NCBI GenBank assembly: GCA_964036045.1
Contig: OZ038384.1
Location: 49,886,843-49,950,842, forward strand
DNA length: 64,000 nt
Direction: 5' to 3'
Origin: Eutreptiella sp. 'Long Island Sound 2002'
Taxonomy: Eukaryota; Euglenozoa; Euglenophyceae; Eutreptiales; Eutreptiaceae
Shown here: piece after piece, positions 5,618 to 51,735 of the stretch
How the letters are laid out: the number at the start of each line of letters is the position of its first letter
Numbering within the stretch: position 1 is the stretch's first letter
Notes under the pieces: model-generated
Seen by the model: the letters and a program-made list of their open reading frames with translations, nothing else
What the model was told of the DNA's origin: nothing
Databases searched by the model: none
Position numbers and translations under genes: made by a program

Positions 5618-5643
5618 CTTAGGCGGCCCTATACGCACGTAGC
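5618..5643 (+). repeat. Left terminal inverted repeat of A1, after target duplication AACAT (5613-5617)
   Basis: Starts CTTAGGCGGCCC and matches the reverse complement of 12113-12138 over about 25 bases (CCTAT here, CCTTT at the other end). The same sequence starts A2 at 59667. Confidence 0.9.
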
Positions 5644-6297
5644 AAAATTGCCACAGTTCCCGAATGGGTACCACCCGAAAAAGGGGGCTGAAAAACCACT
5701 TTGAAAAATTGCACAATTGTGCTCTGCAGGGAACACCCCCAAAAACGTGTGAATTGTCCAAAATGACTGTGTGTAGGGGGTACAACATGTGCCAGTCAAA
5801 AGTCATGTATCCCCTTCAAATTTGGGCACTGCAGTGTCCATCCAAAGAAAAATCCAATTCTTCCAAATCATCCGCTGCTGCATTTCAAACCACACCGTAA
5901 AATGCAACCTAAAAAATGAAGCAAGGAGGAGGACAGGCAAACACATGCAAAACTCTGGTTTGCTTTTTGTTACCGCGTCTGCTGACCCAGTCACTGTGAT
6001 TGTATGCGAAGCGTCAAGAATGATGCACCACCAGTGGTGCCGACCAACAACGGAGGCGCCGCCAGTGCAGGCATTCCAACAATAAATGACAACAACAATG
6101 CCTGCAAAAGAAATGGCGCAGCAGGGGTAAAAAAATGGCGAGTCGCTGAGTTTGGGCACTGCAGCGCCCAAAATTACCAAAACATGGAAAAGGGCACCAG
6201 TCTCACACCTGCATAGAACAGGACGCGCGACAGTGTGCAAATCGAGGCGAAAAAACTACTGACATGGTCACAGGCAGTGCCAACCGCACAACGCAGT
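5618..6297. other. A1 3' flank between X and the left end, with two palindromes
   Basis: No convincing gene. It contains the palindrome copies at 5821-5839 (one base changed, GTGTCC) and 6151-6172 (GCAGCGCCC). A 145-codon minus-strand frame (6240-5803) crosses both palindromes and is conserved in A2. Its composition is not clearly protein-like and elements B and C have only non-coding sequence here, so it is treated as 3' untranslated DNA. Confidence 0.5.
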
Positions 6298-8972
6298 CTA
6301 CTTCTTCTTTGGTGGAGCCTTCTTACCCTTGGCCTGACCTACTTTGGCGTGAAACATATTGAGGGGGGTACTGTCCTTGGCCTTTTTGGCTGGCCTTTCG
6401 GGGGGATCATCAACCTCATCCCCACTGTCGTCGGAGGACGGCTTCTTCTTGCTGGGGGTGCTCCTCTTCTTGCTGTCACCACCTCCGACCAGCACGATCT
6501 CGTCATCCTCCTCTTCCTCCACATCGTCCCCCCCCTCCTCATCTTGCCCTTCCCCAGGCCGCTGCACCACAACTGGCATATAGTCCCTAATCCTTGGCAT
6601 CCAAGCGTCCCAGTTAACCAAGTAGACACAGTCCATCTCCTGCACATACGCCGCTAGCTGTTCACGGAATTCGTTAAACAAACCCTGGCGCCCAGTGAAG
6701 CAAGCTGCCAGACAGGGGGACTCAGGAAGGCAGGACAGGAGCTGTGCTGGCAATACAGCCGATGCTGTCAAAAGCAGGAGCCAGACTTCATCCTCGGACT
6801 GTCTGTCGCGTCGGGGAACAATACCAAGCACACGCAGGAGCCAACCAGCCGCTGCCAGACCAATGGTGCTGCCGTATGCACCCTGATCGCAAATGACAAT
6901 ATTGGGGACCTTCACCCTAAACTTGTCGGGGACACAGAAGCAAATAGTCCTGTCCTCGAACCGATAGGTCGGGTGACCGACTGCCTAATCAAAAAAAGAG
7001 GTCGTAATATATTGCCAGCCTCCACACTCTTGAGAGGCGCGCAATTGATTAACCAGGAACTTAACATCGGCCGCCATTCCACCAATAGCCACAGGTACCA
7101 ACTTCGCAGCAACCTTCAGCACCAATGGATGGATATCGTCAATTTGTTCCTTCGTACACTCAATGAAGACCTGTTGTCAAAAGCACATTTCATTACAGAT
7201 GGGCACTTGAGTGCCTAAAGTGACCAGCAATGCGAAATCGATCCGTTTCTTATGCCTAATGGTTGCATACCGCTTTGTACTCCCTCAATGCAATCGTATA
7301 CGGGATGGCCTTGCCAGGAACCAACGCAATTGCCTCTGCCCGAGCTCCGGTTGCTTCAGTCCCATCCTGCGGCTTGTTGAGCCAGATAGTTGTTGATTTC
7401 CCCCCATCAGTCGTTGTCACTGCAGTTTCCTTGACAGGCCTCGCCATCGCAATCCTCAGGTCAGCCCATTCCTCATCCTGCCACAGCGGTGCTTTCTGGA
7501 TAGTGTCTCAGCTTGGTAAGGGATTTTCGGCACTCCAGGTCCATTTCCCCAGTGACAATTTGGCGGCCCTCGGCGACTTTGCAAGCAGTTTGCGGACTCT
7601 TTGCATTTCATGCACGTTCACTGTTAGAACAGGAGACCACTAGTACCACTGGGATCGAAACAGCCTTACGTTGTGGGTTCGGGGGGGGGGGGGTCAAAAG
7701 CGATCGCGCCAGACCCAGCCGCCCCGTAAACATACGTCGAGAAGGATGGATGAGCGTGTTGTCCGGGTGAAGGTACAGCATCTCCCACAGGCGGTCCCGC
7801 TTCAACAGTCTGGCCTTGGCATGTAGTCCTCCGATCTTGGCCCCATCTCCAGCCATGTACAGCAGTATTTCATCCATTTGGTCGCCATGCAGTCCCGTCA
7901 ACGGCCGCAGAGTGTATGGGTTGAGCACTGCAGTGCAAAAATTAGGGTCGCATCGAGTTTTGGGCACTGCAGTTCCCATGAACACCAAAAGACGACGAAA
8001 ACAGGTGCTCAGAGGACATAATACCTTCACCGGCAGTCTTCTCAAAGGTGTCAATAAACTCAGCCACGCGGCCACCAGATATCTGCAGTAATGAGACCAG
8101 CGGTCTCCAATTTTTCCAGATTGAGTCCTGGCAGGGATACAGTGTTGGACAGGCCACAGGTACGCAGAGGACTGACAACGGTGGTCTCATCGTGCATCTC
8201 TCATACCACAGATGTTTTCTCGCCCAGCCGGCCACACTTCCGCAGAGCCACCAGCAGCATCTCTTTCGCTTTGCCCTTCTGCACTTCAGTCCAAATTCGA
8301 GCGGCCACTTGTCCCAAAACCAGCTTGCTCACTGAGTGTTGTACCGCATTGTGATCGCCTCCAATGATCTCTCTGATGTCAACAGGACAGTCGTGTCTGA
8401 TCTCCTCGCGGTAGACGTGTTGTAACCAGTCCGGCAGTGCCCGCGACTTCTCACAGTATTCTCGGTGAAGTCTTTGGAGTGCCGTCAAGATATGAGCCCC
8501 GCCCAAGCAGTAGGGAATTTCAGCTGATAGAAAAATGCACCACAGGGAGATGGTAGATGGGGGATATCATCGAGATGGGCACTGCAGTGCCCAAACGACC
8601 AGAATGTGTGAAAATTACAACACGTGTGTGACAGGATGGTAGTGTACCTTCGTTTCGCCATATGAGAATGTTTGAGATGGGCCGGCAGGGTGGATTTGTC
8701 CTCAGGCTTGCGATCCGCGATAGTACTGAGTCCTCGTCCCTCTCTCTGGTCTGCCCGCGCGTGAGGTCGGTGTCAAACTTTATCTTGGTCAGCTGTATCT
8801 TGACCAGTTCCTTTTTGATCCACGTTGTCCGGAATGTTTCCGTTGCCCGGTTTGTCCCCGTCCGCTTCACTGGAGCCTGCCCCGACTGCGCCCGTGTCTT
8901 CTCTGCTTTGTGAACGGCTTGCGATGCGGTCTGCTGCTCATCCCCTTCCGGCAGTTTGGTATCCGAAGGCAT
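6298..8972 (-). CDS. A1 protein X: ParB/sulfiredoxin-like N-terminus, Rossmann-like middle, acidic-basic tail
   Basis: Six exons can be placed with GT-AG borders: 8972-8648, 8523-8207, 8082-8025, 7927-7736, 7620-7271 and 7170-6298. They total 2115 bases, exactly 705 codons. Exon 1 has VKIQLTKIKF...GQTRERDEDSVLSRI, and the exon 1-2 junction gives YCLGGAHILTALQRLH. Together these resemble the ParB N-terminal fold (strand, R-box, GxxR/H-box, helix). Exon 6 has VFIECTKEQIDDIHPLVLK and LVPVAIGGMAADVKF, a strand-helix-strand pattern shared with B, C and D. The tail is a Glu/Asp run followed by Lys clusters ending KKAPPKKK, which suits nuclear localisation. TGA at 7510-7508 and TAG at 6987-6985 interrupt the frame, so this copy may be inactive or need readthrough. 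The ParB call is motif-based and unconfirmed. Confidence 0.6.
7928..8024 (-). other. Intron 3 of A1 X, whose 3' splice site falls inside a palindrome
   Basis: Donor GTATTATG (8024) and acceptor GCACTGCAG (ending 7928). It contains two palindrome variants, 7958-7979 and 7921-7940. The CAG at the centre of the second is the acceptor. Phase 1 on both sides, and exon 4 continues LNPYTLRPLTGLHGDQMDE. Confidence 0.65.
8524..8647 (-). other. Intron 1 of A1 X, carrying a perfect palindrome
   Basis: Donor GTACAC and acceptor CTATCAG, 124 bp. Joining the exons keeps phase 1 and gives a peptide in frame with the next exon. The palindrome GGGCACTGCAGTGCCC lies at about 8577-8592, near the middle of the intron. 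A2 has the same intron and palindrome at 61439-61458. Confidence 0.75.
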
Positions 8973-9053
8973 AGCTTAGCAAAGGGGCTAACAAAGGGTC
9001 ACACGACACACTACAAAAGGCCACAGGGCTGCAAATTGTTGATTTACAGGCTT

Positions 9054-11360
9054 CTAATGTTGATTACTACTGGCAGCGCTCGACGATTGAACACAGATGG
9101 CAGAAATAGCATCACAGTCGGATGCACCTGGTAAAAATCGAGTGTCAAACTCATTCAGCTCCGAAAGGACAGCCACGGGGGCGTCGGAATCATCACTGTG
9201 AACAGACACTGCTTCTGGAGGGGGGGGGTCCGGGTCCCATCCATCATCACCCACAAAATCAGCAGCCCTCAGGTCTGGATCTCCGGCTGCCCCACCAGCA
9301 GGGGGGGGGGGTTCCTCATCACTGTCACTGTCGCCATCAGCATTGGGGGGGGCGGGTATCCGGGCGGGGTCCCTTTGCGCAAAAGCGCGTGCTGGCCGGC
9401 GTCGCTTGTACCGGTCTGGTGTATTACATGCGCGTAACATGTCCTGTGCCTGTGCTACTGTTGTGTCCATATCACCTGGAGGACGCTGTGGCACGTGTCT
9501 ACCCAGCTCTGTCATCACATCAGCATCAGCTTTAACAGGTTTAACAAGTGTCTGCAATGTCTTGGCACATAGATCTCGGTAATGCTCTGCAGTGAGCACC
9601 GTATCTAGTGCGCAAGGAAAATCCATCTTGGCAGGATCCCACCTGTCTTGCACGATACTCGACTTCTGACTAAACCAGACCAGGGGGGGTATAACACCAA
9701 CATCAAATGGCGCCATCAATCTGCTAAAACGACGATTAACCAGTTGTGGCAGTCCCTTGGGAACATTAACGTACTGCAGGTCCTTTGGGGTCTGGTCTGC
9801 AACGGGAGTGAGTAGAAACAGGTCATGCACCTGTTGCAACGTACAGTTCCCAGGGTGTTGTGCCATTAAGTGCACAACACGGCTTAGCAGGGCCTCACAC
9901 GGTTCCTCACTGTGTGCCACCCCAGGTAAGCGGGCAAACCACTGCGACCACAACAGCCTAGCAACAACAATGGTGCGCACATATTCAACCTTGTCCTCAT
10001 AACCTAGGGTGAGCCTCAGAAGGACGTGTAGACAACGGCTCAACAATGGCCCTGCAGCGTGCTGCTCTCCCTGTGCAGACCAATGACAATCCCTCACTTG
10101 CGACCCAATAATAAACAAGGCTGGAATGTAACCATACAGCAGTGTTACCAACCCTTGCACCTGTGTAAGAAGTGTGCTGTGATTAGCGTTACCCGGTCGG
10201 TGCAAACCCCTTAGAGTCTGTAACTTCTGTTCCAAAGGTTGGCGCCACTTATGGGCCAAGTGCAAGAGCACCAGAATCATACGCTCCATATAGATTAGTT
10301 TCGGAAAGTTGGGCACTGCAGTGCCCAAATTGAGTGAACCATAGGAAAAATAGGTAAATAAAGGGAAGAATCTTCTGTAGCACAGGGTTACACAATATTT
10401 ATATGGGTGCCATGTGCCGTACACTACCGGGGTACGTGTAATGAACAGGGGCACGTTGTACCGAGCATAGCTGATGCTGTTAACGAGCTTAAGGACACGG
10501 TAGTGAATATTTTCGTCGACCAACAATGGAAGACGGTGCTGTGTGTGCTGCTGCACCTCCTGAAGCCCGTGAATAATAGAGACAAGGTCGGGGGTAGCGG
10601 ACACAGTTAGGTCTGTGAGAAAAAAGGGGGTCCAAGCTGGGCTGGTAACATTATCCCGTCGTATGTCCCAGGGACAACGAACATGTTGAAGGCGGATGGG
10701 GTCCTCCATCAACGCTTGCAAGCCATCAATGAAGTTTTTATGGCTCTGCACCAACAAGTCTGCAGTGTACCCAATCCTCTGCCGCAAGACCATGAGGCTA
10801 GGAAAACACGGCATAATGTCGACAGGTCGTTTCAAGAGTATGATAGCACCGGCTGTACAATTAAGGGACCGGTTCTCATTACCAGGCATAGGCCGGAAGT
10901 TACGTCTATAAAAATTATCAAACCATAGAACAGCGGGTTTACCTTCCAAGGTCTGCCAAAGACTGGTGCACGCAGTTGCTCCTTGAACTGCAAAGGAGGG
11001 TACATGGTAAGAACATTGACCCATGTGAGCCAAACACCTACGTTGCACACGACTCTTGGGTTGAACACCTACAGCCGTCTTGGCACGTGGACGACACCTC
11101 TTGTGTAGAACAGACCATATATTAAAAATCTCTTGCTCAGCAACACGGAACCATTGGTCCGGCAGACAATTAACGGTCCGCCTGTCCCTTTGTTGGATGT
11201 ATTCACCAACAGACCGCCTACTTCTCCACTCCAACCGGAGATCTAACACCCACGTACAGAACGCATCGGCACCCTTATCCACACCCAGAGCCTCAGATAG
11301 ATCCTCCTTTGAAGCATATACCATCGAACTAAGGAACTGCCGGAAGGGAGCCGCATCCAT
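9054..11360 (-). CDS. A1 protein Y: putative transposase-like protein with WFDN, VDEN and YGTWH motifs
   Basis: An uninterrupted 768-codon frame from the chosen ATG at 11360 (MDAAPFRQFL). The frame stays open upstream to 11525, but that extension is hydrophobic and not shared with B or C. Residues 145-152 are LWFDNFYR, 280-288 LVDENIHYR and 313-321 VYGTWHPYK. All three are conserved in B (MWFDNWW, IIDMKIHF, MYGAWHPYK) and C (LWIDNWYR, LVDENIHYR, VYGVWHAYK). RDCHWSAQ further on is also conserved. Spaced acidic residues and the GxWH block recall the DUF6589-type proteins found in eukaryotic transposons and suggest an RNase H-like DDE nuclease; this is inference. The C-terminus is Pro- and Asp-rich. 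This is the most intact Y copy in the window. Confidence 0.65.
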   Translation of the reverse strand: MDAAPFRQFLSSMVYASKEDLSEALGVDKGADAFCTWVLDLRLEWRSRRSVGEYIQQRDRRTVNCLPDQWFRVAEQEIFNIWSVLHKRCRPRAKTAVGVQPKSRVQRRCLAHMGQCSYHVPSFAVQGATACTSLWQTLEGKPAVLWFDNFYRRNFRPMPGNENRSLNCTAGAIILLKRPVDIMPCFPSLMVLRQRIGYTADLLVQSHKNFIDGLQALMEDPIRLQHVRCPWDIRRDNVTSPAWTPFFLTDLTVSATPDLVSIIHGLQEVQQHTQHRLPLLVDENIHYRVLKLVNSISYARYNVPLFITRTPVVYGTWHPYKYCVTLCYRRFFPLFTYFSYGSLNLGTAVPNFPKLIYMERMILVLLHLAHKWRQPLEQKLQTLRGLHRPGNANHSTLLTQVQGLVTLLYGYIPALFIIGSQVRDCHWSAQGEQHAAGPLLSRCLHVLLRLTLGYEDKVEYVRTIVVARLLWSQWFARLPGVAHSEEPCEALLSRVVHLMAQHPGNCTLQQVHDLFLLTPVADQTPKDLQYVNVPKGLPQLVNRRFSRLMAPFDVGVIPPLVWFSQKSSIVQDRWDPAKMDFPCALDTVLTAEHYRDLCAKTLQTLVKPVKADADVMTELGRHVPQRPPGDMDTTVAQAQDMLRACNTPDRYKRRRPARAFAQRDPARIPAPPNADGDSDSDEEPPPPAGGAAGDPDLRAADFVGDDGWDPDPPPPEAVSVHSDDSDAPVAVLSELNEFDTRFLPGASDCDAISAICVQSSSAASSNQH
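10309..10328. repeat. A-family palindrome inside the Y coding frame
   Basis: TTGGGCACTGCAGTGCCCAA, a perfect 20-bp palindrome, encodes NLGTAVPN at Y residues 343-351. The copy in A2 at 63175-63194 is identical in the core. Confidence 0.9.
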
Positions 11361-11894
11361 GGACAAAAGTCCTGTTCGCAGGCAGCAAAGGTAAAGAGAC
11401 AAAGAAAACAGAGACACTATCACAAAACAAACCTGATGCGGCATAGACCAAAAGCAGCTAGCGAAGATCCAAACAATGTATCTCCCAATGGACGTGGAAC
11501 GTTCCAAAGCCTGGCTACACTCCAAGGTGGCAGTCAGACAACCGGCAATATATTTCCAATGAGCAGAGGATGAGTACCAACGTCCGATGATTCATACGTC
11601 CTTTGTCAGGTGTTACGCAATGGAAACCAATAAGAGTGAAATACGGAGTTTTAAATTTTTTGGACACTGCAGTGCCCAAAAGTACTGGAAGTCCATTTTC
11701 AAGTGCACATTTGGACAGGAATGGAAGTGATTGGGCAAGGTACATTGTACGTGGCCTTCCGAGTATAACACCGCGGTGCGATGACCCATGGATAACGGGT
11801 ATGCCAAGTTTTGATGCATGCTGCTGCAGTATGACATCACCTGTGGAGATGACTACAAAGGTGTACGGGAGAACCCACTGAAAAAAGCCATTTC

Positions 11895-11926
11895 AAATTT
11901 TTGGGCACTGCAGTGCCCAAAAATTT
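11895..11926. repeat. Perfect 32-bp A-family palindrome in the 5' flank of Y
   Basis: The core GGGCACTGCAGTGCCC is extended on each side by five T or A residues and then AAA/TTT, giving 32 bases of perfect dyad symmetry. It lies 212 bp from the right end of A1. A second, weaker copy lies at 11660-11680. Confidence 0.9.
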
Positions 11927-12112
11927 TAAATGATACAATTTTCAGCCCGGAATAGGGGGTGTATACGTACACCTCTGGAAGCAACAAAAGGCAAGGTTGT
12001 TGTATCCCACGATGAAAATCCACGTGGGGTTGGCCGAAAAAATGATATGCTTTTTTGGAGGGCGAAAAACGGATGTTGAAATCGCCCTGAATCGCGCCTT
12101 TCAGCAACGAAG

Positions 12113-12138
12113 TCTACGTGCGTAAAGGGCCGCCTAAG
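12113..12138 (-). repeat. Right terminal inverted repeat of A1, before target duplication AACAT (12139-12143)
   Basis: Ends GGGCCGCCTAAG and is followed directly by AACAT, the same five bases that precede the left end. Confidence 0.9.
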
Positions 12139-33003: not shown

Positions 33004-34242
33004 GGCGGCGCGCGCGGACACTCAGGGTATTCACTGAGGGGCCATCCTTCAGCGCTGCAAGCGCCTGTGCCCCACTGTCTCCCATGGAATTCCCACTAAG
33101 AACGAGGGACAGGGTATTCAGTGAGGGGGCATCCTTCAGCGCTGCAAGCGCCTGTGCCCCACTCTCTCCCACGGAATTCTGCCTAAGATTGAGGGACAAG
33201 GTATGCAGTGAGGGGCATCCTTCAGCGCTGCAAGCGCCTGTGCCCCACTGCCTCCCATGGAATTCCCACTAAGATCGAGGGACACGGTATTCAGTGAGGG
33301 GGCATCCTTCAGCGCTGCAAGCGCCTGTGCCCCACTCTCTCCCACGGAATTCTGCCTAAGATTGAGGGACAAGGTATGCAGTGAGGGGGCATCCTTCAGC
33401 GCTGCAAGCGCCTGTGCCCCACTGCCTCCCACGGAATTCGACCTCAGATTGAGGGACAGGGTATGCAGTGAGGCGGCATCCTTCAGCGCTGCAAGCACCT
33501 GTGCCACACTGTCTCCGACAAAATTATCACCAATATCGAGGAAGAAGGTATGCAGTGAGGGGGCATCCTTCAGCGCTGCAAGCGCCTGTGCCCCTCTCTC
33601 TCCCAGAGAATTCTGCCCAAGATCGAGGGACAGCATATGCAGTGAGGGGGCATCCTTTAGCGCTGCAAGCGCCTGTGCCCCGCTGTCTCCAACAGAAATT
33701 CCACAAAGGTCGAGGGACAGGGTATGCAGTGAGGCGGCATCCTTCAGCGCTGCAAGCGCCTGTGCCCCACTGCCTCCCACGATATTTGCACAAAGATCGA
33801 GGTAGAGGGTATGCAGTGAGGCGGCATCTTTCAGCGCTGCAAGCGCATGTGCCACACTCTCTCCCACAGAATATTCACAAAGATTGAGGGACAGGGTACG
33901 CAGGGAGGGGAAGAACACCGCAATGAGATGCAATGGGCCTAGGCAAATGGGCAAATCTTTGAGACGTTAGGTCAGACCCACACACCCTTCGTCCGATTCA
34001 GTAGTGCAACTGCACACAGAACCATAGTTAGGGTCACTGTCAGAAGACTAGTCGGATGAATCGTCGGAAGAACTGTTGGAGGAACTGGTAGAAGAACTGT
34101 CAGAGGAATTGTCCGAAGAATCATCAGAAGAAGTGTGCGAAGAATCGTCGGAAGAACTGTTGGAACTGTCAGCAGTGTCAGAACGTTCAGCGCAAAGCAA
34201 ATCTGCATTGGAGGATGTAGCAGTGCCAAGGTCTGGCCACAA
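33003..34242 (-). pseudogene. Leucine-rich-repeat protein, broken and cut off by the satellite
   Basis: The minus strand encodes at least ten 28-residue repeats of the form LHTLSLxLxxNSVGxSGAQALAALKDAPS, in 84-bp units on the DNA (33020-33900). This is the ribonuclease-inhibitor-like LRR type, normally a horseshoe-shaped protein-binding domain. Upstream, 34242-34048 encodes a Ser/Asp-rich head in frame but separated by TAG (34050-34048) and TAA (33969-33967). One G is missing in the unit at about 33209-33213, which shifts the frame. The 3' end runs directly into the satellite at about 33003 without a natural stop. It is therefore a truncated pseudogene, or less likely a gene with unseen introns. 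Confidence 0.7.
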
Positions 34243-37985: not shown

Positions 37986-38570
37986 TTAGTATAAGTACTG
38001 CTGTTTGTATTGGAATGGGTTTACAAACATGATATACTCTTTCGGGTTCATATTTGTGGCCACCTCAGCTTCCGCCACAACCATCAAAGAGAGGGGTTGG
38101 GCAGGCTCCTTTCCTTTCACACATGCTTCGGACATGCCCTGAACTTGTGAAGTGAGGTGTTTGCTGAGATTGTGTTGACCCTCAATGAGGCGCATGAAAG
38201 GTGGGTTTGTAGATGGATGGGATGCAGTCTGCTGGGGGAGGGGATGAAAAACCCCTGACTCAAAAGGCCAAAGAAAACGGCGAGAGGGCATTGTAACCCA
38301 TCAGGCGTTCAACAAAATCATCTTCGGCACCAAAAAATGACACCAAAGCCGCAAAATTGCATAGCCACACCTGATGACGGTCCCCGGGATCCCTCAATGA
38401 CTTCTCACACGAAATGCACAACATGCAAACACTGAAATAAAAGCTCGGCAAAAATGTACAAGCCCGTAAGGGCATAGAAATGCATTCGCGTCGAAGGCGA
38501 GTGCGCGAGACCTCGCGCACACATGACTGCAAAAAAAAAGAAAGAAAAAAACACTTGGGTTAATTGTGAC
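37986..38570. other. Left flank of element C, possible coding traces
   Basis: Minus-strand frames 38291-37986 and 38532-38260 have fairly natural composition (for example RHQVWLCNFAALVSFFGAED), but no splice junction or family could be set. A C-family palindrome lies at 38500-38521. The left end of element C should be in or near this stretch but was not found. Confidence 0.35.
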
Positions 38571-38645
38571 TTACTTCTTCTTCGGTCCTGCCACCTTAGC
38601 CAACCTGGAATTGAGGCTTCTTGCCGCTATACCTCCCCCACTCGG
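38571..38645 (-). pseudogene. Detached 3' end of element C gene X
   Basis: The minus strand reads ARSLNSRLAKVAGPKKK and a TAA stop at 38573-38571. The Lys-rich end matches the X tails of A (KKAPPKKK) and B (AAAAKK). It abuts, in the opposite orientation, the start of X at 38658. The break is where the inversion join should be. Confidence 0.55.
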
Positions 38646-38657
38646 TGAGGCTGGCAC

Positions 38658-39846
38658 CATGAGTCAACCAGGGTCGCCAGAACAGAGGCCACCAGACGCA
38701 GAGGGAGTGGGGTCATCACCAGGGACCAACCAAGGGGACACACTGAAGAAAGGGCGGAAGAAGAAAGGGGAAAAGAAGCCAATACCGGAGATGAGGGGAA
38801 TGGAAAAGCAGTGAAGATAAAATTGGCTGATTTGAAGATCGACAAGACCAAGGAGCGAGGACAGATCCGAGCCATCAACGACGATGTTGTCAAAAAAGTG
38901 GCGGGATACCAAGCGTTGCCACCACCGGGACCGTTGCGTGTAACCGCATGGGAGGACAGTGGTATGACTCGCTCTGTATTTTTGCATAAGGTCGACAACA
39001 TTTCTTCTCCCTGCTGTGTTGTGGTACATGATTTGCGTTGCAGATGGCTCACTTTGCGTTCTGAATGGGCAACACGGGACAGAGACATGCAAGGCGATTC
39101 AGAACATGCGGCTAGCAGAAGGCAAAGAACTGAAGGACTGGCAAGAATATTGCTATGTTGACATTCTCAAGTACGAAACGCCTTGGAGGATCCGGGCCAA
39201 GGTTGCAGGATTACACCAAGCTGGCAGCCAGTCTGTGACGTGGATTCCGCTGTCCGAGGCGCTAGACAACATGCTTTTGTACGTTGAGGATCATAAGCGG
39301 GAAAAGGAACCACAAGATTTCGAACGGTTCCAAACTGCTGTTGTCCAGGCTGCCGCCAACTCCCCGTTTGTTGCCCCCGAGCAGTTGGAAGAACCAGGGC
39401 ACACAGTATGTGTTGGTGCGTCAAATAGTCGCAGTGCGCGAGGTGTCACACACTGTATTGCACGTTTTTCCTTCGTAGGAGGCAGCATTCAAGCACTTGA
39501 GGGACGTCTTCTCCCTGGCATACTACTGCGGCAAAGACGCGGTGAACGGTATGAGGAACCTCTAGGGTAAGAGCACGAAAGAGGACGTCACAGGGAATGC
39601 CTTCAAGAAGCTAGAGGGGCTGCATCTGCCAAGTTTATTGCAGAAGGTCTGCGCGCATATGAACCTGAAGGATGCGACCATACGCAGTACCCGGTCCCAG
39701 ACGCGTTGATTACAGAACAATGGGTTACTTTCCACCTTGACCATCCGGACAATAAGGATTTCGTCAACCAAACCGCAGGTATGCGGCAGTTTCGCAGCTT
39801 TAGTGCGCGAGGGCTCGCGCACTCACCCGCCATTTTTTCACATCTA
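38658..39846 (+). pseudogene. Element C protein X, N-terminal half (ParB-like region)
   Basis: Starts MSQPGSPEQRPPDAEGVGSS, shifts frame near 38800, and continues KIKLADLKIDKTKERGQIRA then PLRVTAWED. After a probable intron comes VLNGQHGTETCKAIQNM and later YVDILKYETPWRIRAKVAGL. Order and spacing match ParB-like domains: a first strand (KIKLADL), an R-box (GQIR), P-x-x-V (PLRVTA), a G-x-H box (NGQHGTE) and a downstream helix. A X and B X have the same order (GGAHILTAL and SGQHIVEAA). C-family palindromes lie at 39433-39454 (degenerate) and 39802-39823. The reading ends where element B begins. The ParB assignment rests on motif order only. Confidence 0.5.
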
Positions 39847-39870
39847 CTTAGGCCACGCAAACTGCCCACC
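39847..39870 (+). repeat. Left terminal inverted repeat of B, after target duplication ATCTA (39842-39846)
   Basis: CTTAGGCCACGCAAACTGC plus CCACC, an exact inverted match to 46801-46824. Confidence 0.92.
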
Positions 39871-39928
39871 TTCACGGAAGCATAGGTGGCAGACCAACAT
39901 CTTCGTCTGGTGCTGGTGCCAGCACCAG

Positions 39929-40594
39929 ATGGGGGGGTCTGTGGGCTCATTTTGATGGTGTCTTATTGTAGGCACAAAAACAGGGCCTTTTTGGGGGGTC
40001 TTAAACACGTTTCTTTCATTTTCATCTATTGAACCCAGTTCCCATTTCCTGGATTGAAGGTGTGATATGGGAGGAAAAGCACATGTAGGGCTTATTGCAC
40101 CATGTAAACAGGAAGCTGTAAAATCACGCTGTTCTGAACCCCCCCTCAACTGTGGACACGAACAAGCACGGTGACACAGTGTCTCTATTTCCACATTGGG
40201 AACTTCGAATCGTATGCTTTGTAATACACTAGTAGTATCATATGCACATACACAACCATACATAGGAGTCACCGCTGCGAAGTATATGCAAAATTCACCT
40301 GTAAATTGTTGTACCTGAAAGACAGGGCTGTTTACATGAAGATCCAGCTGAGCAGCTGGGGCCAGCACCAACACCTGGAAAAATGGCAATGAAAACAGGC
40401 AATTGGGCAAAGAGTAGCTGGTGCCAGCACTTCCTGAGGAAAACAAAGAAATAGTAGGTGCAAACCAAGCAGAGGTATTGTGAGTGCTGTGTAACAACAA
40501 AACCAACGGACAAGTGCATGACTGTGCAAGACGAACACTGACAGCGTTGTAGTGCAAAGCACTGGACCAGTCTTTATGGGATCAAGAAACATGA
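39929..40594. other. B 3' flank between X and the left end
   Basis: No gene supported. Two palindromes (40353-40373 and 40413-40432) lie here, as in the same position of A1. Confidence 0.5.
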
Positions 40595-43449
40595 TTACTT
40601 CTTTGCTGCAGCAGCCCTGTTGCTCCGGGTAGTCCAATTGGTAAATCCAAGTCGTTTGGGTGTCACAGTGTCAGCAGGATCACCAGCGGCGCCTTCACTG
40701 TTGGACCTCTCCCCGCCAGTCGCAGACTGCTGTGCCCCATTGCTCGTAGCCTTCCCTCGAGTTGCACGTTTCGAACTACTGCTCTCCTCATCCTGCTTCC
40801 GCTTGGCACCGGTTTTTTTGGGCTTCGGCTTTTGGGCCAACGGCTCTGCTTCATGCTCGGCCACTTCCTCTCCATCCTCATCCTCGTCCCCCTGTTCTAC
40901 GTCCTCAAGCTTGCGGAATTTTCCCCTGCAATCAATGGGTACCCCATGGAGCATCTCGTTTGTCACCCCAGTCCAGTCAATATTCGGCAGGCCATCAGCT
41001 TCCTTGCATCCAGCAACAGCATGTGTGACAAAGTCCTGAATTGCCGTATCCCCAAGGATACCAACCACCACATTGACAGGAATATGGAATCGAACTGTGA
41101 GGGCCCCGGGCAATGCGTGGGAGGAGGACAATAGCAGCAGCCATATTTCTTGGTACACCACCATTTCACCAGTCAGTATCAGCAAGTAACCAACAATCTC
41201 CACGGGCAGGTACCCCCCACTTGGGAAATCCGTCACAGTAATGTATCGAGGCACCTTAAAGGGGGGAAAAAAGGAATTCTTCAATGAAAGGAGCTGGCCC
41301 CAGCTGCAACGAGGTGAAACGACCATTTTGTTGTGATTTTTGAGCGCGTGTCCGAACAACCAGGGTCGCAGTGTGGTCTAGATACCTTTTGTGGCAGCGG
41401 ATGTTTCGAGAGAAGATTCACTTCAGTACACCCCATAGTAAATTGTGGTGACTTCTTGTTGAGGTGGTACACTGACAGCTTAATAGCACACAACCCCGTA
41501 TTTTGGTGCTGTTCACGAAGACTGTCCACAATGCCACGACAATCACCAGGCTCACCGGCAACAACAACAAGAACGCCACGCTGCAGCACTGTACTGACCA
41601 ATGCATGGATGCCCAGGGTAAAGCCACGGGGGGGCTCAATGTACACCATTGTAAAAGAGATACCAGCCACTGCTGCTGGGATGGCCGAGCCAATTGCAGC
41701 TGGCAGCACCAGTAGTTTTCCGTCCGAGTCCCCTTCCAACTGCAAGACATTCATGTTCCAAGTGAAGTTCCGAGTGAAGGCCAAGCGGTGACGTCAGTGA
41801 ATCGCTTTGCAACTGGGGTGGCACACAGACCTGTGAATTCTCCTCAGTGGCACCCATGTGCAGGTCGACGGTGAAGAAATTGTCCTGATTCGTCTGGACG
41901 GTTGGTAACACCAGTGGTTTCGACAAGGATTCTCGCAGACCAACATAGCTGACATGCTTCCAAATCGGCGCACTGACAACGTATTTCCAGGGTGGAAAAG
42001 GGTCCTCTTCTGTCCAACACCACGTGTATGTCTTGAAATACAAGTCACTTCGGCTTGCCAGGAGGGATTCACACTTTTCTCGTTCACCCAGTCCACCTTA
42101 GCAATCATAGTACAAACTTTGAGACCCCAGTGTTTGCAGGCACCAAAACGGCATTTCCGAACGATGGGTGCTGGCCCCAGCACCTCTCACAACAAATTGC
42201 AATCGAACAGCCACCGCAGATGCATCCTTATGGGAGGGCAAACATACGGCGAGATTCATGGATGAGATTGTTCTCAGGATGACACAGATGCCAACTCCAT
42301 AACCGATCCAGTTTCAATCGCTTTCCCATCTTCTTGAGCTGTGCTCCACCATTGGCCGTGTAAGGCATAAACTTGCAGATTGTCCGGATATCGGGGGGCA
42401 CCTGTCCTTCGAAGCAACACATTTGATTCACAGTCATGCTATGACCGCGGGCCTCCAGCATCTGCACTGCAAACCCTGCTTCACGTCCACAAGTACTCAC
42501 CAACACAGCCACAGGAGACCACTGCTTTATCATATTGGCCTACAAGGGGTACCACAGGATTCACACCGGGCAACATATGGCGGAGTACGTTGACAGGGCG
42601 ATGAAACCACAAACAAACGGACGTGCTGACGGGCAGGCACACACCAGTGTGCCATCTTGAGCGCCGAATCCACCTTTCACCCACAAATTCGTCAGGTGCT
42701 CTCTGGCAGTGAAGTTCCCCTCGGTATCCCTTTCGTATTCCACCACCAGTCGCTGAAATCTCTCACACAAAAGTGGTGCTCGTGCTGTTTGGTTGGCTTG
42801 ACTAATTCCTGCCAGGGACTCACGAATGGTCAACGGGGTCTCAGGCCGCACAACAGTCGCCAAGAAATGGGAACACCACCGGGGAGGGGGCAAGTTTCGC
42901 TTCTCCGGCTCCAGTTTCACGCGCCCAGCAGCCTCCACTATGTGCTGGCCAGACAGTATCCAGTAGATCCCACCTGATATTGCACCCGGTCACAAATGAT
43001 CAAAGTCAACGGCAATTTTGGACAAGCGATACTAGCAGCAGCAGTGACGAACGTTATTGGTAACGAAACAGCAAACTGTGCGCACAGAAGGCGGCATACT
43101 TCCGTCAGCCCGTATTACAATCCGTGTAGAGGAAGGTCGGCGGTCACTCCTTCAGGTCCTTGACCTTGTTCAGTACCTCATCCTCAGACCACTTTCGTAT
43201 CTGCCCAAACTGCATCTTCTCGTCCCATCGCAGTTTCTCCAAGGGTATTTCCACCTCCTTTTTTTCACAGTGGTCCGCGAGCTTGATCTTCAGTGCACTG
43301 TCTTTCTTGCCTCTTTTACCACCCGGCGCTGGAACTGGCTGTGATGCTGTCACATCCTGAGACTGGCTTAGGAATCCCCCGTTCGTTGACGGTGTCATTG
43401 GTAGAGGTGACATTGTACCAGCACCCTCAGCAGGGGTTGCATCTGACAT
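40595..43449 (-). CDS. B protein X: ParB-like N-terminus, Rossmann-like middle, acidic tail
   Basis: Starts at ATG 43449 (MSDATPAEGAG). Exon 1 has LKIKLADHCEKKEVEIPLEK and GQIRKWSEDEVLNKV. A later exon (about 42965-42660) has YWILSGQHIVEAAGRV and then TPLTIRESLAGISQANQTA, matching the G-x-H box and following helix of A and C. 42533-42250 has KLDRLWSWHLCHPENNLIHE, matching KRDRLWEMLYLHPDNTLIHP of A1. 41784-41300 has FTMVYIEPPRGFTLGIHALV and GVLVVVAGEP. The last exon (about 41260-40595) has PRYITVTDFPSGGYLPVEIV, an acidic run and Lys/Arg-rich sequence ending AAAAKK. Several introns are needed and not all borders were fixed. The IEPPRG segment weakly recalls the DPPY motif of class I methyltransferases. 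Confidence 0.6.
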
Positions 43450-43944
43450 TATGATGAAGAGTCTCATTTGAAGGGAAATGGTGTGGCAAATCGACAGGAA
43501 TCGGTAATGGAACAGCAGTTTCAGCAGAAAATGGCGCAAATTGAGCGGTGTGTCAGTGGCTCTGTCCATACGAAGGGCAGCGCACATCGCAGTCAATTAA
43601 TCCCCGACGGCGGCATCCGCTTCGCTACTATTGACATGGCACTGGTAAATTGCGCACTTGTTCCAAAGCCCTGGAAGGAGACGGCCGTCTCAAATGATCA
43701 TGTTTCCGTGACTGGTCAGTACACCTGCCAGACTTTGATTCCATTGCATCCAGACCAAACAGACCGAACAGAAAACAGTGCGACAGACAACAGACAACGG
43801 TGTGTGTGCAATGTGCAGCGAGGAAAGCAGGAACAATAGGAGGGAATGCTGGCACCAGCTACTCATGCAGACAAGCGTAACCCTACCCTATAGTTAGGCA
43901 GAGGGGTGGGGGGTTATTCTTGGAACACTGCCCCCTCCTCCTCG

Positions 43945-46113
43945 TCACTGGGAGGCAAACTGAATTCGTCTTCCTCTTGAAGCAAAACCAAGGGGGGGGG
44001 GGGCATCACTCATGGTATCCACATCAACTACCAGATGCCCCAGGGAGCCAAGGGAATCAGCACTGGACACGGATATGTGGTCATCCTCTACCCCCACAAA
44101 CCGATCTGGTGCATCAGCATCATCAGCATCAGGGGCACCCTTACCCTTGCCCTTCCCCCCCCCTTTCCCGCGCCTGTTCCGTGTGCGGAACCGTTCCATT
44201 AGGCTAGTGAGCTGTGCAACCTCTGCAGGGTCTCTCCTAAAATTGCATTGATCCAAGTACTGAGTAACACCTTCCGGAGGGGACCGGTTGGAAAAAAATA
44301 ACAGCACACTCCTGCGAAAAACCTTTCGCAGAGCAGCCTCATTAACAGAATCAGGGATGGGCTTGGGAAACGTGTGTCCTTCAGGTAGAAGGCCAACAAA
44401 AGCAGTGGTTTTAGCTGTAGTAAATGGGGCAAACAAAAGCTGGGGACTGGTACACCAGGCGATAAAGCGACGGAGGCGTGCTCGAAAAAGATCGCACAGA
44501 CCAGTGCGTAGCTTGCCGCGAAGGGTTTTGGTGCCCATGCGCGGGTGTGGCATACTGAGGAACAAGTCCATTAGAGCGGGTTGCGATAATGCGGTTGGAT
44601 GGAGCTTGACCCGGGCGGAGAGCCGGGACAACAGGGCCTCACCAATCTCTTCAGCAAAGAGACAACCTAGGGTATTACTCATCCACTCCTGCCACACTGC
44701 AAGTGTGACACTCAAACTGCGAACGTATTCTGTTTTGGCGTCCCAATCGCCAGTAAGAAACAGATGTAGCAACAGGCTCCATTGCAAAACTGTGTGGGCT
44801 GCCTGACCAGTGCCTGGCTGTCGCCCTGACCAGTTGCAGTTGCGTACCTGTACGCCTAACGCAAAAAGCGCAGGGACATAACTAAACAGCAAGGACTGGA
44901 ATCCTTGCAACCAACGGGTAGCTGTATCCATTTGAACTGATGAGAGAGATGCTGGTGCCAGCTGCAACCATCCCAATTTGCGTTGAATACGTACACGTAC
45001 CGAGTTACCTACAAGTAGTAGTGCTGCTACCACTTTCTCAATGTGGAGCAGCTTACGGTGGTGGTACACCATGGCACCCACTTGCAAATTACAGTTTTCC
45101 AAGGCAGCAAAGATAGGAAAGAAGGCCTTGTATACCTCAAGGGCAGTGTGTTTGTAAGGGTGCCACGCACCGTACATACAAGGCAACATGGACAGATGCT
45201 CATGGAAATTGTACTGCACATATGAATCCCCGTACAAAAAACGCAGTAAATAAAAATGTATTTTCATATCAATTATTAGGGGCATGGGGCGCCGGGTGTG
45301 CCGCTGTATGTCCTGGATCTCTTGTAGAATGTGTAGCAAATCAAGGATCCCACCGGTAGTCAAATCGGTCAACAACAGTGGCCGGAATTGTAGTCACCTA
45401 ACGTTGTCCCGTTTCATACCGAGGGGAACACGAATAAACTCAGGCTCCGCATCAAGCAAAACCCGTGTAACATCGTTCAAGGAGCGAAGTGCAGTAGCAG
45501 TGGAATGCACAGCTGAGTCCAGCTGTCCCAACACGGTTACCAAAGACAATTGCCCAGGGAAGGGACATAGGTCTGTAGTGTGCAACATTGCAAACACTGT
45601 CAGGTTCATGCCGGGATTGGGATGCTCTGGGTCAGTAGTAGACCTCTTCCACCACCAGTTATCAAACCACATAGCCATTTGGTGGTTTGACATGGACGAC
45701 CACAGTTGTTGTGCAGCCGAGGTAGCCTTGGCAGTTAGTGGTACAGGGCGATTGGTAACAACACCACAGTTTGCTAAAACACGGCGAACACCCTGCGTCA
45801 AAGGTTGACCTGTAAGTGTGTCTTTCCGTGATACCTTACTAGTTGGACGTGCAGCCTTGTGCAGGACAGACCATAGCATATATAACTGTTTCGTGAAAAC
45901 GGACAACCAACGAGGCTTCCTATTTTGCTTACTTGCAACAACAATTTGAGGTACAGTCTTACGAGTACGACGGTTGCAGCGGACCTGTGCCAATAGGTGC
46001 ACTAACATCAGAACCCCCGGCTCGCCAGCATGGGCATCACGTAATAAAGAAGACCCATTTGAATAATGTCCAGTACGTAGTAGATGCCGAACAACGGAGT
46101 AGGAAAATTTCAT
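43945..46113 (-). pseudogene. B protein Y: transposase-like, interrupted by TGA
   Basis: Chosen start MKFSYSVVRHLL at 46113. The first part holds LYMLWSVLHKAARPTSK and MWFDNWWWKRS, and ends at a TGA (45396-45394) that sits where A1 Y has Ser in RRDNVTSPAW. The same frame resumes LLLTDLTTGGILDLLHILQE, IIDMKIHFYLLRF, MYGAWHPYKH and VRNCNWSG, aligning without gaps to A1 Y. The C-terminus has a Gly/Lys-rich run (GKGGGKGKGKGAP) and Asp-rich sequence, and a 12-base G run at 43990-44001 probably shifts the end. Function as for A1 Y, probably inactive here. Confidence 0.6.
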
Positions 46114-46800
46114 TACAAAAGTCGGTGATGCAAGTAAAAGACACGATGCACATGGTGGCAAAACACAGCACACTCCCTATCCTTCAATGAGATGCACGTA
46201 CCTTATGAAGATAAACATCGGTGGAATGGATATGGGAATGGTACTAACCAGGTTGCTCAATGGAGTTGGTGCTGGTGCCAGCACTCATAGTCCGGAACAT
46301 CATCTCAGAGACTCGATTGCATTGAAAGGTGCTGGCACCAGCTACTTTGAGCCAAAGGGGGATTCGAGAAGACCATTTGAGTCAGCAAGTGCTGGCACCC
46401 GCACCTTTCTGCCAAAGAGAACCAAGGAAAGGTGAAATTGCTTGCAAAGGTGCTGGCCCCAGCTGCTTCAATGATAAACTTGATACCAAAGATACAAAGT
46501 AACAAGACATGTCCAATACGCGGTGACTATAGTAACCAACATGTGCACGATTGAATATCACCAACAAATGTAATTGCGGGACATCCCACAAGTACTTTTC
46601 GTCAAGGAAGGTGCTGGCCCTAGCTGCAATCATGGGAAACATACTTTTGAGATCAGCATTTTCAATCATCATGAAGTAGTAGTGTAGAAAGGGTGTTTTG
46701 AACCCCTAACTTCATCGGCCGCGAAAATACACGTTCAAAAAAGGGGAGTTTTTTACATTGCTCTTTTTGGGTATAGAACCGGGCAAAAGTGTGCCACGGG
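46114..46800. other. B 5' region between Y and the right end
   Basis: No gene supported. It holds five palindromes (46268-46625) and should contain the promoter for Y. Confidence 0.5.
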
Positions 46801-46824
46801 GGTGGGCAGTTTGCGTGGCCTAAG
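46801..46824 (-). repeat. Right terminal inverted repeat of B, before target duplication ATCTA (46825-46829)
   Basis: Reverse complement of 39847-39870. The host X frame resumes just beyond. Confidence 0.92.
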
Positions 46825-46829
46825 ATCTA

Positions 46830-48430
46830 TTAAGCTGCCGATGCAAAGATTCGAGCAGAAGTCGCAGCACTGGGCACGTTGCAACTGAAGATTGGCCTCG
46901 GAAACTGGGGTTATTGGGAAGACGCAAAAAGTTCGAAGTACCGGTCGCCGTGGCCACAGTGGAAAACGTTGACCGGTGCACCTTTGGGGCTGACTGGGGA
47001 CAAGGGAGCACCTCCGTCACCGCAGACCATGTCCGTGCGGAAACAGCCGCAAAGGAAGGCTGAGGCACCAGCATCGTCGCCGACGACACAGACACAGTTG
47101 AGCACTGGCGAAGTGACCAATGTCTCCAAGCAGGATGACCAAGGGGCCAAGTGCAGCTTGACGGCATGCCGTATTGGGGATATCGAAGAGACACCACCAG
47201 CCCGTTTCCGGGACTTGCAGTACTCGTTGTGGGTTGTCAATGCTGACCTCTTCGGGGAATACGACTCTGCAGGATTCATTCCTAAGTGGTTGTTCGATGT
47301 GATGATGTTGGGTAAGGATCTGATTTTCTATGGCGAGACTGATGTGGTGTACCGTATTGGCCGAGACATGCAGAGGCTGTGGCGTATCGAGAAGGAGAAG
47401 GATCCAACTACACTGCCTTTCTATCATGCCCGGTTGCCGGTATACTCTTGGATGTCGGGTTCCGTCACAACCAACATGTATCGGTTTGACGAGCACACTA
47501 TGTGGATTGGAACAACAAGCCGCTGGGATAAGCAGGTATATGTGCCGCGTTCGTTGTTTTTGACGTTGTAGTCTCAGTTATTCGTCTTTCTTCATCGCAT
47601 TTGCAGTTGCCGAACTATCTGACGTACTCCGTTGGACATTTCGAAGAGATGCAGAACAAGAACCTCGGTGGTTTCATGCCTGTGATTCACGTGCTGTGGT
47701 ACCTTGACAAGTATCTGGTTGATTGTGGGAATACTGATGCAGTGGTTGTTGTGGATGACACGCCGGCCATGGCCGCAAAGATTGCGATGTCGGACGGGAG
47801 GACTAAAGTGGCGTTTCTGGCTGTGTCAGCGATCAAGCAAAAGGACCTTAGCTATGCTGTTGGAGGTGCTCTGCAGCATGCCATCGTCATGCGGTACATG
47901 TTGGAGGACGATCAGGTGGAGCAGGGAGTGACAAGTGCACCTTGGGATACTCAAGAACAATGGCTTTTGCGTGGCATTCCAATCTGGGTTTTGGATAGCG
48001 ACCGAGGTCACGAAGGGCACCAGAAGGTGCATGTTGCGGAAGCCGCCCAAGAACAGATTGCGTCTAAGGCCCCCGTTGATGACAGTGAGTCTACTGCGCC
48101 TAAGCCTGCACCTACCCTGCCCAAGCTGAAGAAGATTGCCCAAGTTGTACCAACTCGGGGTACTGCAGCGGGAAAAGGAACCCCCTGAAGTAGCAAGAAG
48201 CAGGCAAAAGAAAAAGGAAAGGAATCGGACAAGGCGGAAGAAACAGACGATGAGGATGGCGACGAGGAGGAGGAAAAAGAGGATCTGGATCAAGTACCGG
48301 AGACCCAGCAGAAGCGGAAGCGGGCGCCGGCCTCTCACTTTGATGCAAGTCCTGATGATGCGGGTAAGGACCAGCCAAAGAAGAAAGCGAAGACTGCTGC
48401 AAGTGCAAGTGCAGAGTCCAGAACGCGAGA
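46830..48430 (+). pseudogene. Element C protein X, C-terminal half
   Basis: Continues X after element B. The first exon contains FRDLQYSLWVVNADLFGEYD, KWLFDVMMLGKDLIFYGE and MYRFDEHTMWIGTTSRWDKQ. It splices by GTATATG...TTGCAG (about 47536-47606) to LPNYLTYSVGHFEEMQ. The order strand-helix-strand matches the middle of A X and B X. An acidic and Lys-rich tail follows (KAEETDDEDGDEEEEKEDLD, PKKKAKTAAS), interrupted by a TGA at 48186-48188. The expected final codons lie at 38645-38571 on the other strand, so the frame runs on into unrelated sequence. Confidence 0.55.
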
Positions 48431-48858
48431 ACACGTCCATTTGGGCTCTGAATTTAGTCGAAACGCCATTTTGCCACTCGTTTTCGCAAATCTGTTACAC
48501 AAGGGTATTTGCTTCGACCAATTCCACGGGACTTAGCGACCTACTCAGTGCACGAGGTCTCGCGCACTCACACCGCATTACAGACCTGTTTGTCGTGTAC
48601 TTCAGTGCGCGAGGCCTCGTGCACTGCACGTGTCAGTTACCGCACTCGTTGGCGCACCTTGCGCGTTGCTGTTTCCCGTCTGTCGGCGTCTATATCTGTT
48701 CTCCTCCCCACAACAACATCCAGTTTCCGTTTCAGTTGGTTTATGGGGTTTGTCTTTTGGTCAATGAGGGCATTCAGCACGCTGTGACCAAGTAGCCGGT
48801 AGTGGTCGTAACAAAGGGGTTGCGTTGGTGAGGGTGGAAATCTCGGTAACGTCCTCGG
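48431..48858. other. Element C spacer next to the X inversion join
   Basis: No gene supported. Two C-family palindromes at 48547-48568 and 48604-48625. In the unrearranged order this would lie between Y and the start of X. Confidence 0.5.
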
Positions 48859-50599
48859 TCACGAAGTTGCAACAGTGCTGACGCGGTCCGGCTCCCATTC
48901 CACGTAGCCCATGCAAATGCGGTCCGCTGCCAAAAATCTTGTTAGTCGTTGTTGCATCCTGTGTACCAGGTTCTTGGGAACGTTTTGCACACCCACGCGT
49001 TTGCCATCTGGACCAACTTGTAGTAACAAGTAATGGTTTTCCACCTCCTCAACAGTAACAGAACCGGTGCTTTTCGCCTTGTCACGCACCAGCTTGCTCA
49101 ACATCTCCTCACCAAACTCCTCTGAGTGTGCCTGGCCGGGCAAGTCCTGGTGCCACTTGCTGCTGTACAGCAATGTGCACATGATGGTGCGTTCATACTT
49201 TAGAACGGTGTCACACGGTCCGCGTTGCAACCTCCGCAACATACACAAACTCAACGGCAACACCTCCCGGGCCCGCGACCCTGTACCGTTGTTTTCCCCC
49301 GCCCAGTTGCACGCTCGTACCACGTGACTCAAGTACAACAACAATGGGCACCATTCCGACAACAAACACAGCACTGTGTTTGCCACTGCTGCCCTGTTGG
49401 CATGCGATGTATCACGACAACTGATTGCAGTTGCAGCCTGTGCCTTGCAACGATACGGGCGTAGTATCCTGGGGGTCGCAAGCATCAGCGCAGCAATGGT
49501 TTTTTCCATAACTATCAGCTTTGGGTATGATAGTATGGTTGCACCAGGGCGTAGCAGGCCTTTCCGTATGTAAGTTAGAATAGGTCAAAACACCCGAAAA
49601 GTGTGTGTAACAACAAACTTGTAGGCGTGCCATACACCGTAAACTAAAGGTACGTACCGCAGGTAGGCACGCATGTTCCATCGTTGGTTCTTTGCCCCAT
49701 ACAACAGTTTTAGTATCCTATAGTGTATGTTTTCGTCAACCAACAGCGGCAAGACCCGGTTTGTCTGTTGTGCTGTGTCCTTCGCAAACTGCAACAAGTT
49801 TAACAGACCGACACCGCAGGTTACCTTTTCCTTCGACAGGGCAAACGGGGGCCACACCGGTGCCTGCACGGCTGTTGTATCCCTCCTCACATCTAGCGGT
49901 GCCCTCACATTTCCGGTATCTGGTACACAACCATCCGTATATCCCATGTCACGCAGAGTCGGGGAGATTCTCCTTTCGCGCTGTTGCAGAGCCCGCGCCA
50001 ATTTCGTTACACGTGCTGCCAGGTCCTCAATGGCTGGGTGTCCTGCCAAGTACGTTGTTCTCTGCTTTAGCTGAAGTACTGCCATTGCAGTACAACTCTG
50101 CGACCGGTCACTTTCGTCTGGGTGTAGCGTGTATTGTGCCCGGTACCAGTTGTCGATCCACAGCACGCAACACGATGCAAGCACCAATGTCCACGTTGCT
50201 TTAAGTGTTGTTGCTGCCTGTTCGTCCACTGTATTTGCGGCGGCGTCTGTGTGCCCAAGTCGTACTTTGGTTCGTCTTTCTGTTTGTGTTAGGTACCTTG
50301 TCGTGTTTCCCGTTTTTTTTCCTGTTTGGTACTGCCCGTTGACGCATCAACAGGTACAGGTTCTAGCCCTCTTGTCGCAAAACGCGCACCCAGCGCTTGT
50401 CCTCCTGCCTTTTAGCTGCGAGTAAATTGTGTCGCGTTCTTTTGTTGAACCTGAGTCGCTGTGCAAATGTTAACACCAGTTGTGCCGCCAGGTCGTTTCG
50501 TTTCAGTCCGTTCCACAAGTCATCAGCTGTTTGGTATGTTGGTTCTGCAGCGCATGCCTCTCTTAATGCGGCAGCCCCTTTGCTTACTTCTGCAATCAT
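48859..50599 (-). pseudogene. Element C protein Y, truncated and interrupted
   Basis: Starts MIAEVSKGAAALREACAAEP at 50599. The frame changes after a TAG at 50365-50363, then gives VLWIDNWYRAQY, LPLLVDENIHYRILKLLYG and VYGVWHAYKF. A TGA (49587-49585) follows, at the position of the second Phe in the FFP of A1 and B. The same frame continues to VMEKTIAALML, VRACNWAGENNG and ends CMGYVEWEPDRVSTVATS. Alignment to A1 and B is gap-free across the TGA. The long acidic tail of A1 Y is missing, which fits loss at the inversion join. Confidence 0.6.
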
Positions 50600-51735
50600 T
50601 CGATGCGTTACTGATTTTCTGGCGAGAAGGGCATTCTGTGTATTTCTGCGTTAAATTAAATTTGCGCGCATATTTTAATTCACGTTTCGCACAGCATAAT
50701 TTAAAAACAGCGTATTTAAAAACATCTGGCATTTTCGTGTCGTCATTACTAGTGCGCACGTTGCCGTCGCAATTTGTATTTGGTGTTTGCGTGCGCTCCG
50801 TTGCCAGTAACTAAAAACCATTTTCCCAAGCACAATCTCTTGTTCCGTTTTCTTCCTTAATCCCAGTTGGAAAAAAAAACCTATCCTTCGAGCAGCGAAG
50901 GCTACGGCCGCCATTAAAACCAGACACGCCTACCATTGAGTGGCTGTTAGAAAAAAGAAAATCATTCCCCGGCCCCCATGATTACAACGGACATTACGAC
51001 GAAGGTTAGCGATGTATAATCGCCGGTCACAAGTGGTAGCCTTGAAAGGGAATGTAAATGCCGGCGTAGCCTGACCTGCTCGCATTTTCATTTCCTTGTG
51101 TGGTTTGAGTGCACGAGGCCTCGCGCACTGATTATTTCTGTTAGACAATGTTGTGCACCGTTTCATGCGTGACCAACGCTGTGTCTACACATACGTACAC
51201 CACAAAAATCAAATGTGCTTGTCAGTATGGTACTGCACCTGCAGTCATACGAGTCATATCACCCCCATGAAACATTACATTACGTGATCGGAGTGCGCGA
51301 GGCCTCGCGCACTCCGGATGCCTAAATTTGTATTTTATTTGTACTTTAGCGTACATGTGTTTTACCGAACATGGGAAGTCTACCCGTCACATACTTTCAA
51401 TGCTGGTTCGTCAGTACAATGTGAGTTCTAATAACGTCTGAAAGCTGTGTACTTCCACAACCTCCGGTCACTACATTTTTTATGGTTCTGTAGCAAACTC
51501 TACTTCGAATAACTCGAGTGCGCGAGGCCTCGCGCACTCAGAGCACCGTAAAATATAAAAAAACGTCCCATTTCGGAACACTGAGGTGCGTAATGCCTAA
51601 AAAACAATTTATTTCACATTGCCCAAAAACACCTTCATCAAACATCCCAAAAAAATAGTTTTTTTGCTGTGTTGTGAACCGGTCCTTTTCCGCGCATTTG
51701 ATGCGCAAAACAGGGTGCAGTTTGCGTGGGCTAAG
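50600..51735. other. Element C 5' region with three palindromes and the right end
   Basis: No gene supported. Palindromes at 51108-51129, 51292-51313 and 51517-51538 share the core GTGCGCGAGGCCTCGCGCAC; the first has one changed base. The right inverted end is 51714-51735, ending GTGGGCTAAG. Confidence 0.65.

Follow-up and report, generated by a model that had tools for sequence, protein, structure and literature searches.

Elements and gene X

Within a 64,000-nucleotide stretch of the genome of Eutreptiella sp. 'Long Island Sound 2002' (contig OZ038384.1, forward-strand positions 49,886,843 to 49,950,842; hereafter, the window), we identified three related DNA transposons, termed A (with a second copy, A'), B, and a rearranged C. 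They appear to be families of one cut-and-paste transposon group, each with one transposase and a second gene, X, and each carries its own palindrome in multiple copies. The N-terminus of X resembles the ParB/sulfiredoxin (Srx) fold, and the pairing of a ParB-like protein with private palindromes suggests that X recognizes and marks the DNA of its own family.

Element A (5618..12138, minus strand) is complete, with terminal inverted repeats CTTAGGCGGCCC and a 5-bp target-site duplication, AACAT; its limits were set from the second copy, the inverted ends, and the direct flanking repeat. A' (59667..64000, minus strand, continuing to 65003 past the window) has ends as in A and the duplication GTTGT, and carries a 1.2-kb internal deletion relative to A. 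Element B (39847..46824, minus strand) also has complete ends, with terminal inverted repeats CTTAGGCCACGCAAACTGCCCACC (the inverted ends also being given as CTTAGGCCACGCAAACTGC) and the duplication ATCTA, and is inserted in C. A, A', and B each combine the inverted repeats and target-site duplication of cut-and-paste elements, and CTTAGG-type ends occur in all. Element C spans approximately 38.4 kb to 51735, interrupted by the nested B; its right part (46825..51735, minus strand) closes with the one end that was seen, CTTAGCCCACGCAAACTGC, and a search for the far, left-hand end did not find it. In the window copy of C, X and the transposase have opposite orientations, and C palindromes lie close to the junctions (38400-39846 and 46825-51735); in a young C-type copy elsewhere in the 2.28-Gb genome, whose contigs reach 201 Mb, both genes share a strand and are separated by a stretch that holds two perfect palindromes (L074).

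The transposase open reading frame (ORF) of A (9054..11525, minus strand) encodes 823 aa without a Pfam match. That of B (43945..46173, minus strand) consists of two ORFs with one stop between them, and that of C (48859..50229, minus strand) is damaged and lies within the right part of the element; those of B and C each contain at least one in-frame stop, and in-frame stops also occur in the X genes of A and B. By tblastx, both the transposases and the X genes of A, B, and C are mutually related, with transposase identity over the best stretch of about 34% between A and B and about 39% between A and C. A Pfam scan of four transposases returned chance-level rows only. The transposase has recurrent blocks with a D in WFDN, a D in VDENIH, and an E in EExCEALLSR, which would suit a DDE enzyme. 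Among 10,183 candidates, the A transposase scored at no fewer than 55 genomic places (itself included) at 89-100% identity; more distant homologues were found at 27-37% identity, with 8 of the 11 listed proteins on contigs shorter than 10 kb. Against viral contigs, the transposase profile gave nine pattern matches, none of them confirmed. Some of the A transposase copies are full-length, and others form groups whose ends fall near residue 772 or residue 753; these represent either alternative C-termini or subfamilies.

The first-pass annotation had described one motif order for X in the three elements, and our reconstruction agrees. In A, exon 1 (8648..8972, minus strand) encodes the first half of the ParB/Srx-like domain (KIQLTKI...GQTR...NILIWRNE), exon 2 (8204..8523, minus strand, ends placed by eye) encodes the second half with the GGAH motif (YCLGGAHILTALQRL...), and the later exons (approximately 6298..8137, minus strand) encode an acidic, Lys-rich tail with one in-frame stop. 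X of B (40595..43480, minus strand) is multi-exon and reads EIPLEKL (with KIKLADH just upstream), GQIR at 43206, and SGQH at 42953. The first exons of X of C (38600..39846, plus strand) carry KIKLADL at 38814, GQIR at 38859, and NGQH at 39064, and the gene resumes at 46825-48400 past the B insertion. Judged by eye, an apparent phase-1 GT-AG intron splits the domain halves at one shared position in A, B, and C; an intronless X of B, an early idea prompted by open frames of 344, was rejected because stops lie in between. The three N-termini share 22 invariant columns, with 26-27% identity to B. X is probably a nuclear protein, given its Lys-rich tail. On the minus strand near 38.6 kb, a reading frame ends in PKKK-tail codons that resemble the end of another X gene.

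Genomic matches number at least 168 for X of A, at least 258 for X of B, and at least 300 for X of C, and copies whose exons are open are present in the genome. A single score (220.8 bits, 84% identity to the window copy) recurs at more than 100 of the C-type places listed, for which reason we take this family to have been recently active. A profile of the three N-termini retrieved 256 proteins at E values up to 1, with no Pfam domain in the best 120, and the 21 that were inspected were all of the X type.

Private palindromes and their distribution

The first-pass annotation had noted 8-13 copies of one private palindrome in each element, and we found 8 to 12 copies per element, providing palindromic sites in cis in the manner of ParB-parS. 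The nine A palindromes (TTGGGCACTGCAGTGCCCAA, 20 bp each, 5822..11920, up to 5 of 20 mismatches allowed) start at 5822, 6152, 7199, 7921, 7960, 8575, 10309, 11660, and 11901. The twelve of B (39909..46627; GGTGCTGGTGCCAGCACC, GGTGCTGGNNCCAGCACC; scanned with GGTGCTGGTGCCAGCACC at up to 4 of 18 mismatches) start at 39909, 40352, 40414, 41290, 42167, 43845, 44948, 46268, 46328, 46388, 46449, and 46610. The eight of C (GAGTGCGCGAGGCCTCGCGCACTC, 38499..51539, up to 6 of 24 mismatches allowed) start at 38499, 39432, 39801, 48546, 48603, 51107, 51291, and 51516, and A' has six A palindromes, two of them past the window edge. Eight mononucleotide shuffles per element yielded no matches at all. At the loosest threshold, two matches fell outside the elements, one A-type at 37692 (5 mismatches) and one B-type at 14946 (4 mismatches), while stricter cores occurred seven times in A, five in A', 11 in B, and seven in C, and never in the 38,465 other bases (the window plus about 6 kb beyond, leaving out the satellite at 25.5-33 kb). 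Four of the B palindromes are spaced 60-61 bp apart; a tandem repeat was considered here and rejected, as TRF finds no array in 46150-46700.

The palindromes lie mostly outside exons, with exon limits set by eye: one of nine in A is exonic where 70% is coding (P about 4e-4), and one of 12 in B where 61% is coding (P about 3e-4). In A, the palindrome at 10309-10328 lies inside the transposase and encodes GTAVP, which a distant homologue, P0019, also has at that place; the one at 7921-7940 straddles a predicted splice site of X, and the rest fall outside predicted exons. An X intron seems to use the CTGCAG of the 7921-7940 palindrome as its 3' splice site (TTTTTGCACTGCAG).

The palindromes track with the X families within the reach of the analysis, which covered the loci examined and genome-wide sites of the A palindrome. 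Cross-family palindrome matches were absent from 59 A, eight A-like X, three B, and one C loci, as well as from nine A sites and the elements in the window. The exact A palindrome occurs at 626 sites in the 2.28 Gb and its reversed control at none. The first 50 sites are all on contig C1; 37 of them have a listed A gene or a sister palindrome no more than 7 kb away, and the other 13 have no such neighbor within that distance. Eight of those 13, fetched together with one paired site, all proved to lie inside A-derived DNA (9/9, 84-99% identity to A over at least 157 bases). At four loci (L075 and L079-L081), a long match to A breaks off at a perfect palindrome; past it, any further match is short and weak, and is to the flank of another A palindrome, that at 11660. 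This reflects either an element rearranged at the palindrome where the match breaks off or a diverged subfamily in which that site was kept.

The noncoding sites also vary less than chance windows. In a comparison of 59 loci, some of them overlapping, with A, the six noncoding A palindromes showed 0.0080 variation per non-CpG site, whereas random noncoding windows averaged 0.0162, about twice that value, with 0.64% of 5,000 draws as low (P 0.0064). Further, CpG sites of A copies vary more than other sites, both in coding DNA (0.0235 versus 0.0109, about twofold) and in noncoding DNA (0.0231 versus 0.0160, 1.4-fold), which is what methylated copies would show.

The fold of the X N-terminus

The initial reading of the X N-terminus as ParB/Srx-like stood at the level of the superfamily, by profile comparison and structural matching, and was not supported for ParB itself. 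Specifically, the X profile scored 34.0 against a combined ParB and Srx profile (P 5.7e-5, 67 columns), a value reached by none of 200 shuffles (maximum, 19.5) and compared with 8.1-15.0 for six control slices, and ranks 1-15 of the 50 shown in the structural PDB match list were all ParB, Noc, KorB, PadC, or Srx. The nearest single profile was Srx (24.1 for six rows, 0/200 shuffles), while a ParB-only profile did not score above shuffles, and in Smith-Waterman comparisons of single X rows with two ParBs, the score of every row was reached by at least 19 of 500 shuffles.

GERR, the C-motif of ParB, and ENxxR, its P-motif, are both absent at the matching place from the rows of X alignment A3; Spo0J, for comparison, has GERR and ENLQR, and the GERR position in X reads GGAH, SGQH, or NGQH, with NGQR in two rows. 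These tetrapeptides align with the GGCH of sulfiredoxin, the most common eukaryotic form of the ParB fold in a 2025 survey (PMC12704722). Unlike sulfiredoxin, X lacks the catalytic Cys of GGCHR (A or Q in every covering row of A3), is far longer, and is transposon-borne.

Other searches were negative within their scope. Pfam gave one chance-level row for ten window or element ORFs and chance-level rows only for three spliced X; NCBIfam gave nothing for three members of X alignment A1, PHROGs nothing for five X proteins, and hmmsearch of alignment A1 nothing among PDB sequences, and tblastn of X in phages returned two chance rows. As regards the helix-turn-helix and C-terminal dimerization domains of ParB, the X exons and spliced N-termini scanned gave no Pfam match above chance.

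Possible roles of X and the palindromes

The explanation we favor, with about even confidence, is that X is a self-targeting factor that would mark and open its own family's chromatin through the palindrome, in a mode of action like that of VANC but with a different protein, the elements forming one transposon group. We infer that each X binds its own family's palindrome, with targets scattered over the promoter region, the introns, the spacer between transposase and X, and both end regions, and that bound X would counteract silencing of the element; it would probably also aid the transposase in choosing its own family. A chromatin-opening role is favored because private sites, spread over the element and chiefly in noncoding DNA, track a private protein, as in VANDAL21 with its VANC21, and because of the CpG variation pattern. 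For this layout, such self-targeting would be at least as good an explanation as partition.

Several points weigh against this explanation. The structural model of X has a mean pLDDT of 45, and Pfam recognized no helix-turn-helix in X exons or spliced N-termini. By single rows, the sulfiredoxin resemblance is present in A-type X and lacking in the B and C rows: the Smith-Waterman score was reached by 0 of 500 shuffles for A and 1 for A2, and by 21 for C30, 90 for B, 250 for C55, 251 for C50, and 259 for Cw. The 59 loci of the variation test include cases of one copy seen twice and are not all independent, and the transposase, instead of X, could be the palindrome binder.

That last alternative, in which the palindromes act as subterminal repeats aiding assembly of the transposition complex and X has some other role, is one we regard as unlikely while giving it some weight. 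Palindrome density is high close to the two ends of B and, in A and C, in the 5' region, and the transposases, too, differ between the families; palindromes also occur, however, deep in introns and in the spacer between transposase and X, at kilobase distances from the ends, where subterminal sites need not lie. Rather doubtful is the proposal that X is a nucleotide-switched ParB-like clamp that loads at the palindromes of its family and from there slides along the transposon, so as to mark, protect, pair, or retain copies; the equally doubtful corollary is that its specificity would diverge as new transposon families arise. A clamp of the ParB type is conceivable because the available text of the 2025 survey reports that the fold includes proteins binding CTP, ATP, and GTP and that many of its members belong to mobile elements (PMC12704722). 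X shares with bacterial ParB-parS the fold superfamily and several palindromic sites near the protein's gene, but departs from it in having GGAH, SGQH, or NGQH for GERR, no ENxxR seen, a ParB-only profile score not above shuffles, and no ParA-like partner in a scan of ten element ORFs, as well as in being an intron-containing transposon gene of a eukaryote. A reading of the palindromes as short insertion sequences or hairpins that propagate themselves, spreading within a family with no bound protein, is improbable: the sites are mainly noncoding and near-identical within a family, as this would predict, yet the fetched A sites are confined to A-derived DNA, one palindrome codes for transposase residues (GTAVP) that the distant homologue P0019 also has at that place, and variation in the palindromes is reduced. 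Least credible is a captured host sulfiredoxin acting on host proteins, with the palindromes as unrelated promoter or splice elements, for which the Srx profile score and the plausible 3' splice site at 7921 speak, but against which stand the replaced catalytic Cys, the long extra region and Lys-rich acidic tail, and the palindromes outside introns.

Self-targeting by X has partial precedents. TnpA of En/Spm (CACTA) elements is likewise an accessory protein encoded by the element, which contains many short sites that it binds; these sites are subterminal and not palindromic, unlike those of A, B, and C, and we know of no ParB fold in it. In Arabidopsis, VANDAL elements are DNA transposons with an extra protein, the anti-silencing factor VANC, which targets short motifs in noncoding regions of the element (upstream and in introns); these motifs differ between related families (PMC5735166, PMC10398659), as do the family-private, noncoding motifs of A, B, and C. 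Unlike the VANC21 motif YAGTATTAY, which occurs in tandem repeats and for which the available text of PMC5735166 does not use the word "palindrome", the sites here are dispersed 16-24-bp palindromes, and unlike VANC, X is ParB/Srx-like, without a Pfam match above chance. The main text of the fold survey, as available, contains no word starting with "transpos" (PMC12704722), and titles and abstract openings of the papers listed in searches of an open-licence library showed no eukaryotic transposon of this layout. If true, the self-targeting proposed here would be an independent invention of self-recognizing transposon machinery, joining a ParB fold in a second gene with private palindromes. A, B, and C would then offer natural, ready-made protein-site pairs for studying how such specificity evolves, and it would become possible to test directly for a ParB-like switch inside the nucleus of a eukaryote.

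Elsewhere in the window, a long satellite (24589-33003) begins with units of about 52 bp that contain the palindrome TGGGGGTCTAGACCCCCA (24.6-25.8 kb) and continues for about 7 kb in units of roughly 41 bp that show a strong strand skew. An open frame encoding leucine-rich repeats (ALAALKDAPSLHTLSLDL units) follows at 33136-33954.
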